Below, one piece after another: positions 57,041 through 64,000 of a stretch of 64,000 nt of DNA (within the stretch, counting starts at the first letter, position 1; the number at the start of each line of letters is the position of its first letter). Origin of the DNA: Akkermansia muciniphila (GTDB lineage Bacteria > Verrucomicrobiota > Verrucomicrobiia > Verrucomicrobiales > Akkermansiaceae); contig CAMDLP010000008.1 of the NCBI GenBank assembly GCA_945901795.1, forward strand, positions 1-64,000, given 5' to 3'. A program made the position numbers and the translations under genes. Below the pieces are notes generated by a model. It saw only the letters and a program-made list of their open reading frames with translations, made no database searches and was not told the origin of the DNA.

Positions 57041-57598
57041 ATGGCATCAAAGAAGAAGACGGTTGTTTCGGAGGAGAAGGTATTGCACCGCAAGCTTGTC
57101 GCGTTGTGGAACCGGGGGCAGAGCAAATACTGCGAGGTCCGCGGCTCGGAAATTCACGGCCGCGGCGTTTACGCGACGACTTTCATCCCGAAGGAAACGA
57201 AGATCATCGAGTATGTCGGCGAATTGATCAGCAAGGAGGAGAGCGATAGCCGCGGGGTTTCGCAGCACGCCAAAGCCATCGAGACGGGGGACGCGGCGGT
57301 TTATATTTTTACGCTCTCCAGGAATTACGACATCGATGGCAACGTGCCATGGAACACCGCGCGGCTGATCAACCATTCCTGCGCGCCGAACTGCGAGGCA
57401 TGGATCGTGGGGCGGAAGATTTATATTCACTCGTTGTGCGACATCAACACGGGCGAGGAACTGACCTTCGACTACGGCTTCGATGTGGACTGTTATGAGG
57501 ATCATCCCTGCCTCTGCGGCAAGCAGGGTTGCATCGGTTATATCGTCGGCCAAGCGCAGTGGGCGGAGCTAGAAGTGCGCTTGAAGGCGAGGGCTTGA
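57041..57598 (+). CDS. SET-domain protein methyltransferase
   Basis: 185 aa from the ATG at 57041. The SET fold is clear: YCEVRGSEIHGRGVYATTFI, IEYVGELISKEES, ARLINHSCAPNCEAWIVGRK (the NHSCxPN SAM-binding knot) and ELTFDYGFDVDCYED. A post-SET cysteine cluster CLCGKQGCIGYI completes it. It transfers methyl groups from SAM to protein lysines; bacterial targets are mostly unknown. It follows the secreted hypothetical gene and may share its transcript. Confidence 0.9.
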   Translation: MASKKKTVVSEEKVLHRKLVALWNRGQSKYCEVRGSEIHGRGVYATTFIPKETKIIEYVGELISKEESDSRGVSQHAKAIETGDAAVYIFTLSRNYDIDGNVPWNTARLINHSCAPNCEAWIVGRKIYIHSLCDINTGEELTFDYGFDVDCYEDHPCLCGKQGCIGYIVGQAQWAELEVRLKARA

Positions 57599-57613: not shown

Positions 57614-58498
57614 TCACCAGACCTTCATCCGGAGAGTGATTTGACCAAACAGTCCGGTGTCCATGTCTTCTTTGAAGAGTCGGTCGCCGTTAGGTTCTGT
57701 CAGGCGGATGTCGTTGCCGACCGTGGCACCCGCTCCGGCGGTGAGCCAGAGATTTCCTGACAGGCGGCGGCTCGCATAGACGCCGAGGCGGTAGGATGAA
57801 AGGTCGATGGAATGGGATCGTCCGTCCGCGTCGTCGATGTTCCAGATGCCGCCGCCCGAGTCGCCGCGCAGGCTGAAGAGCCAGTTTTCATCGAAGGAAT
57901 AAGCGGCGATGAACGTCGGGCCGTAGAGCCCGATCCGGACTTGGTCATTGACCATCCAGTCGAAGCCGATGCCTGGAAAGAACCGGGTGTCGCCATTGAG
58001 GTTCAGCACCACGGCGCCGAAGCCGAGGGTGAATTTCTCGTTGAAACGGTAGCCGGCGCCACCACCGAGATCGAAGGTGAAATCATCTTCCCCGACGTCT
58101 TCGAAATCGGTGGCGAGCTCGGCACGCGCCCAGCCGCCGTAGATCCAGGGCGAGCCTTCGCGCATCGAGATGGCGAAGGCGCTGAGATTGAGGGAGTGGA
58201 GATCCTCGTCGCCGATGGGGAAGTCGGCCGGCGTGTCATTGAAGTCGAGAGCGGTGGCCTCATATTCGAAAAACGGAAGAATTGTGAGGCCATCCATCGG
58301 CGAGATCGGCTTGGACAATACCGAGCGAAGCTCGAAGCGTGAAACTGATAGGCTGCCTGGGCCATCGCTGAAGTTCATTTCACCATCATGGCCGAAGGTG
58401 GCGCGCGCGGCGTCGGATCCGGGGACGACGGGCTGGGCTGAAATCGAAAGAAGGCAGCCTAACAAGACTGTCGCGGCGGATATTGAAATTTTCAACAT
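57614..58498 (-). CDS. Outer-membrane beta-barrel-like protein (DUF6268-type)
   Basis: 294 aa from the ATG at 58498, opening a signal peptide (MLKISISAATVLLGCLLSIS-AQP). The mature protein shows alternating beta strands with aromatic residues (FELRSVLSKPISPMDGLTIL, PWIYGGWARAELATDF, GAGYRFNEKFTLGFGAVVLN), and a barrel-like C-terminus ending in LRMKVW. Such proteins are common in Verrucomicrobia and Planctomycetes. It is probably a porin-like or surface barrel. It converges with the SET gene. Confidence 0.7.
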   Translation of the reverse strand: MLKISISAATVLLGCLLSISAQPVVPGSDAARATFGHDGEMNFSDGPGSLSVSRFELRSVLSKPISPMDGLTILPFFEYEATALDFNDTPADFPIGDEDLHSLNLSAFAISMREGSPWIYGGWARAELATDFEDVGEDDFTFDLGGGAGYRFNEKFTLGFGAVVLNLNGDTRFFPGIGFDWMVNDQVRIGLYGPTFIAAYSFDENWLFSLRGDSGGGIWNIDDADGRSHSIDLSSYRLGVYASRRLSGNLWLTAGAGATVGNDIRLTEPNGDRLFKEDMDTGLFGQITLRMKVW

Positions 58499-58567
58499 GC
58501 CGCAAAGTGTCGCGGATGCTCTGCCGCGCAAGCCCTTGAATTTCGAAATGACGAGGCGTGAGGAGAC

Positions 58568-58888
58568 TCAGCCCTGCATCAGCTTGACCCCCCACCAGAT
58601 CAAGGTGCCGGTGGCTGCCAAAAGAAGTAACAGGAGCATGAGGCTACGGCTTTGGTCGCGCAGGATGTTGGTTGCCTCGCCTCGCGAGACGAGTTCGGCG
58701 TGGGCCTTCATTCGTATGCGGTCCTCGATATCTGCGAGCGGCGGCATGGTGCACTCCCGGTCTTTTTGCTCCTGGGCGAGCTTCCTGGGGATTTCCGCGC
58801 ATTCCTTCTGGAGGAGGAGGAGTCGCTGCTCCGTCTCACGGAGTTGCTTCAGTTCCAGATCTTCTTTGAGAAGGGTGCTACGGCTCAT
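58568..58888 (-). CDS. Coiled-coil protein with C-terminal membrane helix
   Basis: 106 aa. Charged helical coiled-coil (KEDLELKQLRETEQRLLLLQ, ECAEIPRKLAQEQKDREC) is followed by a short linker and one C-terminal transmembrane helix (SLMLLLLLLAATGTLIWWGV), so the protein is tail-anchored with the coil in the cytoplasm. No family is recognised. It follows the next coiled-coil gene by 20 bases and shares its layout, so the two likely act together. Confidence 0.7.
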   Translation of the reverse strand: MSRSTLLKEDLELKQLRETEQRLLLLQKECAEIPRKLAQEQKDRECTMPPLADIEDRIRMKAHAELVSRGEATNILRDQSRSLMLLLLLLAATGTLIWWGVKLMQG

Positions 58889-58908
58889 GGTGCGCGGGGT
58901 GGGTCGGG

Positions 58909-59544
58909 TTATTTGGCGAGGTAAACGAAGAGAGCCAATCCGCCGAGCACGACGAGCGGAAGGTTGAAGGCGAATCCGTTGCGCAGGTTGGCCATGAATT
59001 CCGAGCTGCCCGCGCGGCGGCTGCCGGCGGCGCGGCCGCGTTTCGAGGCGCGGCCGAAAATCGCGCCGCTGCGACTGCCTTCGAAATGCGCCGCAGCCTG
59101 ATCGTATTCATCCGCGGCGATGTCGATGGTCATCGAGGCTTTTTCGAGCTTCTCGGAAAGGTGGTCGCGGCTCCAGCTCTCCGGATTGAATTTCTGGATC
59201 TTGTCGAGGTGGGCGGCGAAGCAGACGCGGCACTGTTCCAGGTCCTCCGCCTCTTGGCGCATTTCAAACAGCTCGCGGTCGATCAGGGTGAGCGAGGAGG
59301 TGAGTTTCTCGGTGAGTTCTACCTGTTGGGAAAGGAAGCCGCGCTTGCGGGTGGTGAGCTCCTCGAGCTCGCTTTTCTTGCGCTCGAGTTCCTCGCGCTG
59401 GAGCTGGATTCGGTCGAGTTCGTCCTGCGCGTCCTTGAGTTTGCGATCGTAATCCTCGTCGCGGTTGGAGCTGCCCGCGGACGACATTTCCATTTGGGTC
59501 GAGCGGATCTTAATGTGGTGGGTGTGTTCGCCGGGTGCAGCCAT
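58909..59544 (-). CDS. Larger coiled-coil protein with C-terminal membrane helix
   Basis: 211 aa from the ATG at 59544 (a further ATG at 59571 is possible). A long coiled coil (YDRKLKDAQDELDRIQLQRE, then ELERKKSELEELTTRKRGFL) is followed by a Cys pair (LEQCRVCFAAH), a charged Arg-rich stretch and one C-terminal membrane helix (FNLPLVVLGGLALFVYLAK). The topology matches the smaller neighbour downstream. Unknown function; perhaps a scaffold at the cytoplasmic membrane. Confidence 0.72.
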   Translation of the reverse strand: MAAPGEHTHHIKIRSTQMEMSSAGSSNRDEDYDRKLKDAQDELDRIQLQREELERKKSELEELTTRKRGFLSQQVELTEKLTSSLTLIDRELFEMRQEAEDLEQCRVCFAAHLDKIQKFNPESWSRDHLSEKLEKASMTIDIAADEYDQAAAHFEGSRSGAIFGRASKRGRAAGSRRAGSSEFMANLRNGFAFNLPLVVLGGLALFVYLAK

Positions 59545-59641
59545 GTGTCGTGAGGGGTTAAACAGATGCAAGTCCCTTATCTGAAATCATTTTCCGCATC
59601 CAGCGAAATATTTCAGCTTTGTTGACTAATTTTCCGCCCGC

Positions 59642-60055
59642 TCAAATGTAGAACATCGGCGCGCCCTGATTGCTGGCCAGACTTTCCACCGTGATTTGAT
59701 CCAGTGACTGCTGGAGGCCGGTGGAAACCTGCTCCCACGCGCGCCTCACCGCTTGGCCGGAATCGCCGTCCCGGGTCACGGAGCATTGGAGCAGCGCGGG
59801 GTCGACCGCTTCGACCACCTGCCGCAGCGTGATCTGGTCTGCGCCGCGCCCTAGCAGGTAGCCTCCGGCCTTGCCGCGGCGGCTTTCGATCAGACCCGCG
59901 CGCCGCAGGTCATTGAGGATTTGCACCAAAAAATTTCCGGACACTGCTTCGCGTTGCGCAAGGTCCTCAAGCCGTGTAAGAGTCCGCCCGTCATGGTATT
60001 TCGCCAGCTGGGTCATCGCCCGGCAGGCGTATTCCAATTTCTGTGAAATCTTCAT
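59642..60055 (-). CDS. Rrf2-family transcriptional regulator (CymR-like)
   Basis: 137 aa. The winged-helix start KISQKLEYACRAMTQLAKYH and ARRAGLIESRRGKAGGYLLG-like region match Rrf2. It has a single Cys (LLQCSVTRDGD) and lacks the three cysteines of the IscR Fe-S site, which fits CymR-type sensors. CymR represses cysteine genes with CysK. The gene is divergent from cysE with the start codons sharing two bases (CATG at 60053-60056), so regulator binding could affect both directly. Confidence 0.88.
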   Translation of the reverse strand: MKISQKLEYACRAMTQLAKYHDGRTLTRLEDLAQREAVSGNFLVQILNDLRRAGLIESRRGKAGGYLLGRGADQITLRQVVEAVDPALLQCSVTRDGDSGQAVRRAWEQVSTGLQQSLDQITVESLASNQGAPMFYI

Positions 60056-60917
60056 GAGCGAATCTCAACAGGCCGGAACTCTCCCGGCGAGCAAGAATCC
60101 GGGCAAGCTTTGCTCTGGAAAAGTCGCGGACCTCCGCAATGTCTGGGAAACCCTCCGCAGCGAAGCCGCCCGCGTCGCCGAGGAAGAGCCGACACTCCAT
60201 CACCTCGTTGACGACGTGATCCTTTCCCGCGAGACGCTCGCCGCCGCCCTCGGTGCCCGCTTGGCCCGCCGCTTGGCCCGCGAGGACATGCAGCGCGCCG
60301 TGATGGAGCCGCTGCTAACGGGCGTTTTCGAGGCTCATCCTCACATCGTCCACTCGGCCTCGCGCGATTTGCTCGCGATGTTCGAGCGGGATCCCGCGTG
60401 CTTTTCACCGCTGGAGCCGGTACTTTTCTTCAAAGGCTTCCTCGCTCTAACCACCTACCGGGTCTCCCACCAGCTCTGGCTGGACGGCCGCCGCTGGCTC
60501 GCCCTGTATTTCCAGAGCGTCGCCAGCGAGGCCTTCGCCGTGGACATCCATCCCGCCGCCCGCATCGGCTGCGGTATTCTGTTGGATCACGCGACCTCCT
60601 TCGTCGTCGGGGAAACGGCGATCATCGAGGATGACGTTTCAATTCTCCATGAAGTCACGCTCGGCGGCACCGGCAAGGCCACCGGCGACCGCCACCCGAT
60701 CATCCGCTCCGGCGTATTGCTAGGCGCGGGCGCGAAAATCCTCGGCCGCGTGGAAATCGGCACCGGCGCCAAGGTCGGTGCCGGCAGCGTCGTCCTCAAC
60801 GACGTGCCGCCGCACAAGACCGTCGCCGGCGTGCCCGCCATCGTCGTCGGCGTGACCAGCGGGGAAATGCCCGCCATTGAAATGAACCAGAGTCTCGACG
60901 GCGGCTTCCAAATTTGA
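60054..60917 (+). CDS. cysE: Serine O-acetyltransferase
   Basis: 287 aa from the ATG at 60054. CysE acetylates L-serine, the first step of cysteine synthesis. An N-terminal helical domain (ETLRSEAARVAEEEPTLHHL, VLFFKGFLALTTYRVSHQLW) precedes the left-handed hexapeptide helix: DIHPAARIGCGILLDHATSF, VVGETAIIEDDVSILHEVTL, GGTGKATGDRHPIIRSGVLL, GAGAKILG. Catalytic His and Asp positions are within DHATS and DRHP. The C-terminus is longer than minimal, with an acidic tail. Divergent regulation by the Rrf2 protein is likely. Confidence 0.94.
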   Translation: MSESQQAGTLPASKNPGKLCSGKVADLRNVWETLRSEAARVAEEEPTLHHLVDDVILSRETLAAALGARLARRLAREDMQRAVMEPLLTGVFEAHPHIVHSASRDLLAMFERDPACFSPLEPVLFFKGFLALTTYRVSHQLWLDGRRWLALYFQSVASEAFAVDIHPAARIGCGILLDHATSFVVGETAIIEDDVSILHEVTLGGTGKATGDRHPIIRSGVLLGAGAKILGRVEIGTGAKVGAGSVVLNDVPPHKTVAGVPAIVVGVTSGEMPAIEMNQSLDGGFQI

Positions 60918-60921
60918 ACCC

Positions 60922-61905
60922 ATGAAACTCCGTTTAACAACACTCACCCTGCTAGGGTTCGCCTCGTTGTCCTGTGACAAGGTGAAGGATCTCGCCAATA
61001 AGACAAAGTCGGCGGTGGAAGGCCAGATCGCCAAAAAAGCCGGCGAATCCGGCACCGCCCTTGCTGATCCCGCGCTCCAGAAACTCATCGATGAAACTCC
61101 CGAGGGCGTCGTTTTCCGCAAGGATTTGCCGTTCCCTGAAAAAATCGAAATCAGGACCACGCGCCGTCACGAGCTGTCCGGCCGGTTCTTCGAGGCTTCC
61201 GCCATCGAGAGCAATAGCAAGGTCGTCAAAGGAACCCAAACCACCGTCACCAAGCTCGAGCGCGCCGGCAACCAAGTCCGCTACACCCTCGAACAATCCA
61301 CCTTCGCCGAGCCCGTCATCGAGGGAGCGGATAATTCCAAGCAGCCCGTCGTCAAGCAACTGGCCCCTCCCTCCAGGCCGCGGGTTTTCGGTAAATCCGG
61401 CACCACTTGGAAAGCTGACGATACCGAAGGCTTCCGCGCCGCCGCTCTTTCCAAACAACTCGCGCCGGTCTTCGATTCGCTCCTCGTCGAAAACGCGCTC
61501 GCCCCCCGCACCCTTTGGTTCGGCAAGCACCGCTTCAAGATCGGCGACAAACTAACCGTCTCCGGTAAATCCCTGCCGATGCTGGTGACGGGAGACGCCA
61601 AGGGTTCCCTCAATCTAACGTTTGAAGCCATCGAGGCGGTCAAGGGTCATCCTTGCGGCGTCTTCGCCGTCAAGGGGGATTTCAGCCGCAAGCAGGCAAC
61701 CGACTTCGAGGGGAATTTCACCGACGAAGAGGTCGCCATTGAGTCGGGGAAACTCTGGGTCTCGCTCATCTATCCGATCATCCTGCGGGAGGAAACCGAC
61801 ACCATCCAGAGCACCAAATCCGGCGGCGGTGGCGGGCTTGCCGCACGCGGCCAAGCCTCGGTCAATGTTTCCGTCATTCGAGAGTGGAAAACGACGGGAC
61901 CGTGA
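60922..61905 (+). CDS. Hypothetical lipoprotein
   Basis: 327 aa. The signal peptide MKLRLTTLTLLGFASLSC ends in a lipobox, so Cys18 should be lipidated. The mature part starts with a charged helix (DKVKDLANKTKSAVEGQIAK). It has no family known to me; predicted beta content is high (VVKGTQTTVTKLERAGNQVR, KIGDKLTVSGKSLPMLVTG). It begins four bases after the cysE stop, but the link to cysteine metabolism is unclear. Confidence 0.75.
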   Translation: MKLRLTTLTLLGFASLSCDKVKDLANKTKSAVEGQIAKKAGESGTALADPALQKLIDETPEGVVFRKDLPFPEKIEIRTTRRHELSGRFFEASAIESNSKVVKGTQTTVTKLERAGNQVRYTLEQSTFAEPVIEGADNSKQPVVKQLAPPSRPRVFGKSGTTWKADDTEGFRAAALSKQLAPVFDSLLVENALAPRTLWFGKHRFKIGDKLTVSGKSLPMLVTGDAKGSLNLTFEAIEAVKGHPCGVFAVKGDFSRKQATDFEGNFTDEEVAIESGKLWVSLIYPIILREETDTIQSTKSGGGGGLAARGQASVNVSVIREWKTTGP

Positions 61906-61945
61906 ACGACTCTGCCCAAGCGATGGGCTCCTATTTCGCCACCTC

Positions 61946-62561
61946 ATGCAGCCACTGATGACAAAGCTTCCGGCTCGCCCACTTCTCCGAAGGGGAGGTT
62001 GGATACTCGGATTTTTCGGAATGATGATCGCTCCGATCATTCCGGCCTCCGCCCATGGCACGCACTCCGCGCTGATGTCGCGATTGGACGAGCGCTTGGC
62101 GGAACAACCGTTGAGCGGCGATCTCTGGTATCGGCGGGCTGTTTTGGAATTCGAGCATGAGGACTGGGCCGCCGCCGCCCTCGATTTCGAAAAAGCGGAA
62201 CGATACGCTCCCGGCGAGTTGCCCGTCCTGTGGTGGCAGGGCCGGATTCTCGACAAGCAGGGAAACTCCCAGGAAGCCAAGTCCGCGCCGCCCTCGCGGC
62301 AAATCCCGAGGCCCAACCGGATCTGGTTCATGAAGTGGCGCAGGCGCTCGCGAGCAACCGGTTGACAGACGAAGCGGTGCGGGTTCTCGAGGCCGGTGTG
62401 AAACGCCTTGGCCCGATCCCGTCGTTGCAGCTGAAGATACTCGAAGTGGAGGTGAGCGCGGGTCGTTATGACTCCGCGCTTTCCCGCCTGGACGCCATGC
62501 AGCGCTCCGGTCCGCGACCGGAACCCTGGATGGAGAAGCGCGCGTCCATCCTTGCGCAAGC
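61946..62561 (+). pseudogene. TPR protein, frameshifted and 3'-truncated
   Basis: From the ATG at 61946 a signal peptide (WILGFFGMMIAPIIPASAHG) precedes TPR-like helices (RLAEQPLSGDLWYRRAVLEF, AALDFEKAERYAPGELPVLW). Near 62285 the frame shifts; the next frame continues ALAANPEAQPDLVHEVAQAL, EAVRVLEAGVKRLGPIPSLQ and EKRASILAQA. At about 62561 the gene ends in mid-repeat and joins the metallophosphoesterase remnant. Both lesions show it is dead. Confidence 0.7.
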
Positions 62562-63713
62562 TTCGATCTTGCCAGCACCTGGACGAATTTTCCGGCATTC
62601 AATCCAACGATCACAACCGTTCCGAACTCCGTTGGCGTGACCACGACGGCACCCGCCCTCGTTACTTTCAGCAGTGCGCTGGCTAACAATTCCACCGTGC
62701 TCTTCCGCTGGGTGGATGACAATGCGCAAACTCAATCACCCGACCAAATTCTTGGACTGGATAACCTCAGTATCGCCGTGCCGATCGGTCAAACACCCGT
62801 CGGCACCTTGACTGCTCCGGAAAACGGCTCCGTTTGGTATCTCGGTGACACCATCAACCTCACTGCCACGGCTTCGGATTCGGACGGCTCTGTCACCAAG
62901 GTGGAGTTCTACCACGATGCTAACAACGGTTCCACCAACACCACGGCGAACTTCCATTACTTCGACATGTTCACCTTCCCCACCGCCGGCGAGTGCGGCG
63001 GCGCGGTGTCCGGCACCGAGCGGTAGTACAGCTTCGACTATGGAAACATTCATTTCATCTGCCTCGACTCGCAGGCCAGCGTGACCACCGTCGATAATTC
63101 GGCCACCACCGGCGTAAACGAGGACGGCCCGATGGCCATCTGGCTTCGCCTGGATCTCGCCAGCACCACCGCCAACGGAAAAATCCGCAACGCCGCCAAC
63201 GGCTTCACCGCCCCGGCCACTACCGCAGGTGCGGTGATCCCGCCCGATGGTGCCTACATCAAGCCGCTCACCGGCCCTCGCGACCATTTCGGCGCGGTTT
63301 ACAACACCGCAGGCATGTCCGGCCTGACGGGCACGGAAGCCATCGACCACAGCGCGATGTATGTTTCCTATAACAACGTCGGCACGGTGAACCTCAACGA
63401 CAGCGGCTTTATGGTAGCGGATATTTCCAACGGGCTTGTCACCAAGCGTGGCTCACCGTCACCATGGTATCAGACGTCCGTCAGCGGCACCGACTTCCGG
63501 GTCGTTTACATCCGCCGGAAAGACGCCGCGGCGGTCGGCATCGTTTACGCCCCGCAGTTCAGCCGGGATTTGATCAACTGGGCTGACAGCGCGGCCACTC
63601 CGACCGTCATCGCCGATGGCGGCGAGGTCGAGGCCGTGAGCGTCGAATACCCGCTCTTTCCTGCCGGGCGAGACGCGAGCTTCTTCCGCTTGGGAGCCCG
63701 CACCACTCACTGA
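62562..63713 (+). pseudogene. Metallophosphoesterase remnant with internal deletions and a nonsense codon
   Basis: One frame from 62562 gives FDLASTWTNFPAFNPTITTV, VTTTAPALVTFSSAL, FRWVDDNAQTQSPDQ and a TAG at 63024, then in the same frame YSFDYGNIHFICLDSQASVT, WLRLDLASTTANGKIR and DGAYIKPLTGPRDHFGAVYN. YSFDYGNIHF and the KPLTGPRDHFGA end match secreted purple-acid-phosphatase-like phosphoesterases. The metal-binding histidine segments (GDxH, NHE, HxH) are missing between them. It lacks its own 5' end and is fused to the TPR remnant. Confidence 0.65.
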
Positions 63714-63728
63714 TTGGACCGGTCCGGA

Positions 63729-64000
63729 TCAGCCGCCGATGTCGGTGCGGCCGGAGAGTTGGGCGCCTTCCTCCATCGAGAAAACCTTGGATTTGATGTC
63801 GCCGTTGATCTTCGATTTGTCCTTCAGTTCGCAGCGCTGGGAGGTGATCTTGCCTTCGACCTTGCCGTAAACCTTCACTTCGCCGGCAGTCACGTCGCCT
63901 TTGATGACAGCATTTTCGCCGATGGTCACGCGGCCCTTGTCCGAGGTGATTTCACCGTCGATTTTTCCATCGATGATCATGTCGTTGGAGAAGCGGATGG
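63729..64000 (-). CDS. Bactofilin, partial
   Basis: The frame runs off the right end, so the start is outside. The visible 90 residues are a bactofilin core: IRFSNDMIIDGKIDGEITSD, KGRVTIGENAVIKGDVTAGE, VKVYGKVEGKITSQRCELKD and KSKINGDIKSKVFSMEEGAQ. It resembles the bactofilin at 23101 in the order of turns (NDLVVDGKIEGEI, VYGKV-G-I) but with a short C-terminus. It is a third bactofilin-type gene in 64 kb. Confidence 0.88.
   Translation of the reverse strand, partial: IRFSNDMIIDGKIDGEITSDKGRVTIGENAVIKGDVTAGEVKVYGKVEGKITSQRCELKDKSKINGDIKSKVFSMEEGAQLSGRTDIGG

Follow-up and report, generated by a model that had tools for sequence, protein, structure and literature searches.

Overlapping start codons of a CymR-like Rrf2 regulator gene and divergent cysE in Akkermansia muciniphila and its relatives

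In a 64,000-nucleotide stretch of DNA from Akkermansia muciniphila (hereafter the window), two divergent genes begin within one tetranucleotide. The CATG at 60053-60056 holds, on opposite strands, the ATG of rrf2, which encodes an Rrf2-family regulator, and the ATG of cysE, which encodes serine O-acetyltransferase, with bases 60054-60055 common to both; the two-base overlap claimed by a sequence-only reading of this DNA is thus confirmed. Our best explanation, to which we give a probability of roughly 0.58, is that rrf2 encodes a CymR-like, probably autoregulated regulator of cysteine or sulfur metabolism whose gene is held in a head-to-head arrangement with cysE. A regulator-target relation between the two genes is likely, because the conserved overlap brings together a cysteine-pathway gene and a probable cysteine regulator.

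Results

The minus-strand ATG at 60055-60053 opens a 137-amino acid reading frame (rrf2, 59642-60055), and the plus-strand ATG at 60054-60056 opens one of 287 amino acids (cysE, 60054-60917). Upstream starts of rrf2 are excluded because a TGA at 60067 closes the frame, and its later candidates, TTG at 60037 and ATG at 60016, would each cost residues covered by the family model TIGR00738. The cysE frame has no ATG, GTG or TTG after 60054 up to ca. 60173 (ca. 120 nt), and its sole others upstream, the TTG codons at 59913 and 59871, lie deep within rrf2; no other predicted start of cysE in the window is credible. Thus, the overlap holds up against later in-frame starts and, as far as sequence can establish it, the two overlapping ATGs are the only sensible starts. 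The Rrf2 protein belongs to the Rrf2 superfamily by Pfam PF02082 (107.1 bits against a cut-off of 30), and its match to TIGR00738 (106.4 bits against 73.3) runs from residue 1. CysE belongs to the serine acetyltransferases by TIGR01172 (217.2 bits against a cut-off of 210.65), and Pfam finds in it SATase_N, beginning at residue 30 (104.3 bits), plus Hexapep. Elsewhere, the window encodes a bacterial SET-domain protein (57041-57595, plus strand; PF00856, 88.7 bits) and a bactofilin (63729-63980, minus strand; PF04519), and an Rfam search of 58000-64000 gave no match.

The gene pair was followed across 145 Akkermansiaceae genomes, in 114 of which, by a hand count from search listings, rrf2 and cysE are adjacent and divergent. 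The other 31 comprise 19 of a genus labelled g3 without an adjacent pair, six without an Rrf2 match (G044, G065, G097, G121, G130 and G137) and six that have one of the genes absent, weak, unlisted or at another site (G003, G004, G017, G027, G054 and G080). The 199 loci parsed, many of them redundant, reduced to 137 unique ones; 135 were usable after L080, with an interrupted cysE frame, and L187, in which rrf2 runs off the contig, were dropped, and in a further locus, L200, cysE gave no match. The measurements of geometry cover 94 of the 114 genomes, the remaining measured loci being further contigs. At L080 the junction itself reads CATG, and cysE is either broken there or misread in sequencing. 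Counted from the start of rrf2, the ATG of cysE falls at -1 (that is, CATG) in 83 of the 135 loci, at +3 in 14, at +7 to +9 in 16, at +17 to +22 in 21 and at +78 in one. On a midpoint-rooted tree of the concatenated Rrf2 and CysE proteins, the 83 CATG loci and eight others form one 91-member clade (support 0.998), and these eight, all at +8, form a single subclade of it. The overlap is therefore present in relatives, as a check of the initial claim required, and among the 135 loci it is confined to one Akkermansiaceae clade. Cultured carriers of the CATG pair include Haloferula rosea (L130) and Luteolibacter pohnpeiensis (L097).

Within the 83 CATG loci, none of the four bases changes on the tree by parsimony. 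The G at +1 (60056 in the window), which serves the cysE start codon only, shows no change, against 6-20 changes at each of +2 to +10 and a median of 15.5 at the third positions of rrf2 codons 5-44; this set was picked by its state and the test is partly circular, a fairer statement being that the 91-member clade keeps CATG save for one eight-member subclade. The CATG arrangement obliges both genes to start with ATG, as the A of each pairs with the T of the other. Among the +3, +7 to +9 and +17 to +22 groups, 39 of 51 loci start rrf2 with GTG.

Outside the family, we fetched 20 loci from other families of the order, listed reading frames for 10 and named proteins by search for four of these. 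One of these (L206) reads cysH, cysK, rrf2 (minus strand), cysC, cysD, where 21 bp separate the rrf2 start from the first cysC ATG; in the others, rrf2 lies near cysK (L208), near a sulfite reductase gene (L216), or near metY and cysK (L223). By eye, no sulfur gene was recognised among the reading frames of L210 and L224. These neighbours agree in part with the predicted role in sulfur metabolism. Two loci of a sister family, L207 and L211, also have a divergent cysE, whose first ATG is separated from the rrf2 start by 141 and 248 nt; thus, judged from these sequences, the extreme compaction is a feature of the window's own family.

Ordinary compaction could account for the CATG without any regulation of cysE by rrf2: the overlap would have come from a single base and been kept as hard to lose. 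Given the frames, the G at 60056 alone makes it, so that a single occurrence is not improbable; the spacings from -1 to +22, with one at +78, argue that exact overlap is not required across the family; and passages of PMC2174442 count 57 (331 minus 274) divergent overlaps shorter than 5 nt in 58 prokaryotes, or about one per genome. We nevertheless consider this explanation rather unlikely, since the pair stays adjacent in most of the genomes surveyed and, in other families, rrf2 is again found among sulfur genes, with different partners. The part that exceeds chance is the retention of CATG across the clade.

To return to the CymR-like reading, the regulator's predicted structure points in this direction. 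The AlphaFold2 model (mean pLDDT 85.5, from an alignment of 11 sequences) has B. subtilis CymR 2y75 as its best Foldseek match (TM 0.83), with 32-36% identity to the 2y75 chains over the aligned model. On the CymR equivalog NF047409 the protein scores 74.7 and 73.8 bits, far under the cut-off of 195. An IscR-type Fe-S sensor would fit some of the same evidence, as IscR structures rank just after CymR and TIGR02010, the IscR model, gives 71.8 bits, only slightly below the 74.7 of the CymR model. We judge this identity improbable: the protein has two cysteines only, at residues 11 and 91, and not the three-cysteine cluster motif of IscR. Among 20 further Rrf2 proteins taken as a control, moreover, all 14 long paralogs carry a cluster-like cysteine motif and 13 of them lack a terminal isoleucine, the other ending in NHHI.

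The six short Rrf2 proteins in that control, from other families, all end in isoleucine. In our set, the last four residues read M-[FYW]-[YFH]-I at 135 of 135 loci, with the M and I invariant; in the window they are MFYI (codons at 59645-59656, minus strand). Because this end is invariant yet disordered in the model (pLDDT below 50 at residues 131-137), it suggests a partner-binding tail. Order-level relatives (n = 20) end in isoleucine in 18 cases and in phenylalanine in two. CysE itself ends in isoleucine at 64 of 135 loci, the window included (codon at 60912-60914, plus strand), and not at the other 71, with ca. 20 changes on the tree. According to passages of PMC12895370, C-terminal isoleucine motifs occur in CysE, the CdiA toxin, EGL-9 and CymR, all partners of CysK or a homologue, and passages of PMC4961446 describe CymR on DNA as stabilised by CysK. 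Short Rrf2 proteins of other families (L238-L243) end in GYGI, FEI, FDI or FGI, the first of which is the tail given for the CysK-binding CdiA toxin in the same part of PMC12895370.

Residues 1-29 of CysE, which precede SATase_N (60054-60140, plus strand), form an extension of variable length that overlaps with the promoter presumed for rrf2. Measured from the rrf2 start, a conserved CysE residue stands at 11 different distances among the 83 CATG loci (65 to 125). Each of these distances is 2 modulo 3, and at least 13 length changes of the N-terminus, 13 being our count, are all frame-preserving, which is what translation of the stretch from the CATG would produce. That cysE truly begins at another codon, which would make the overlap an artefact of annotation, deserves hardly any credence: a further in-frame ATG, GTG or TTG does precede the conserved domain in 57 of the 83 loci (ATG in 26), but such codons sit at differing places among relatives and are absent from the window, the G at +1 does not vary, and every length change stays in frame back to the CATG.

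On the rrf2 strand, a pattern T-N-T-G-N-T terminates 12 or 13 nt upstream of the rrf2 start in 66 of the 83 CATG loci, in 13 of the 16 loci at +7 to +9, in nine of the 14 at +3 and in 15 of the 21 at +17 to +22, though not in the one remaining locus; at other positions it averages at most 0.35 loci per position. It looks like a DNA signal rather than a coding effect, because in the +17 to +22 group nearly all of the stretch is upstream of cysE. Read as a -10 element, it would give rrf2 a leader of ca. 5 nt, and a near-leaderless mRNA is plausible. In the window the candidate element is CCTGTT, which lacks the first T (60067-60072, minus strand, within cysE codons 5-7); its role is inferred from this pattern. 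For cysE, no comparable signal and no consensus promoter were found, and no sigma-70-like promoter occurs on either strand of 59850-60250. Comparing rrf2 codons 2-10 with codons 11-44 revealed no significantly higher conservation at third positions in the former (p = 0.23), and RNA structure across the starts was not convincing (z-scores of 0.34, -1.05 and -1.78). Separately, a short palindrome right before the cysE ATG was considered as an operator and rejected, as third positions there vary freely.

Of 41 long reading frames in the window, a set that contains some spurious antisense frames, one has a Shine-Dalgarno-like 4-mer before its first ATG, against 14.8% of 5000 random positions. This suggests that translation in this genome starts largely without Shine-Dalgarno sites, and because the 4-mers are depleted, a ribosome site within the neighbour's coding sequence is probably not needed. 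The earlier proposal that each gene's ribosome site must sit inside the other gene is weakened by the same count.

A conserved block of ca. 35 nt, AACCTNAYAAWACAAGGTAA...ACTAAGG, lies at ca. 2393-2427 of L245 (minus-strand reading), with relatives in L246, L247, L251 and L257. It ends directly before the first gene of an apparent operon for sulfite reduction with a putative cysH and with cysK, the latter matching PF00291. The block may be an operator or a promoter. A matrix built from the five sites upstream of this operon was scanned over the 137 rrf2-cysE regions, which on average scored no better than shuffles with the full block or with either of two parts of it. The best single scores did exceed the best shuffle (17.67 against 7.38 for the full block, 14.67 against 12.60 and 13.22 against 11.64 for the parts), and the four top full-block scores (L148, L137, L190 and L149) fall on A/T-rich stretches at three distinct positions, all in loci outside the CATG clade; we read them as chance, less surely so for L148 (17.7). 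Thus, the scan of 137 regions found no operator motif common to the sulfur genes, here represented by that operon in the same genome, and the rrf2-cysE pair. We call the regulator CymR-like, and not a CymR, because of this failed search and because its score of 74.7 bits compares with an equivalog cut-off of 195.

Discussion

The sequence-only reading had taken the pair as an extreme divergent regulator-target layout. That proposal stands in part: the overlap is conserved and it does pair a regulator with a cysteine-pathway gene, but no operator was found. The mechanism that we propose is modelled on CymR and draws in part on the passages cited above. By this analogy, Rrf2 with CysK bound would act at the common start region to repress both cysE and its own gene. 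O-acetylserine, the product of CysE, would compete with the Rrf2 tail for CysK, which would relieve repression of cysE and rrf2 alike.

The rrf2 promoter would lie under the variable N-terminal extension of CysE, and the overlap may be tolerated because of this placement and because translation seems largely free of Shine-Dalgarno sites. Once formed, the overlap would be self-locking, since drift to GTG at either ATG would break the other. A broader account, which we offer tentatively and hold somewhat doubtful, extends to Verrucomicrobiota of the order: a short Rrf2 with a CysK-docking isoleucine tail would have CysK as corepressor, CysE would supply the opposing input through O-acetylserine and, at the 64 loci noted above, its own isoleucine tail, and in the window's clade the start-codon lock would force both ATGs.

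The regulator suggests that cysteine sensing of the CymR-CysK type may extend past Bacillota. Among open-access titles and abstract openings, a scope that leaves subscription journals mostly outside, we found no description of an Rrf2-cysE pair or of CymR in Verrucomicrobia or Akkermansia. The clade-wide overlap is also a clear example in nature of two genes that hold each other's start codons in place, because divergent overlaps are strongly under-represented in prokaryotes according to passages of PMC2174442.

Among known systems, IscR belongs to the same Rrf2 family and has a similar HMM score and fold match, but the window's regulator lacks its three-cysteine cluster. CymR of B. subtilis and S. 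aureus (2y75, 3t8r) resembles the regulator in fold, in similar length and in a sulfur-gene neighbourhood. CymR also has a C-terminal isoleucine motif in the account given in passages of PMC12895370, as does the window's protein; PDB sequence searches left the last residues unaligned, so this likeness does not extend to a comparison with the tail letters of solved CymR chains. In contrast to CymR, the window's regulator sits head to head with cysE, in another phylum, and far below the CymR equivalog cut-off. Finally, as in divergent regulator-target pairs and the rare divergent overlaps of prokaryotes covered in that part of PMC2174442, one start region serves a regulator and its probable target; here, by contrast, the overlap involves two bases of the start codons themselves and is kept across a clade.
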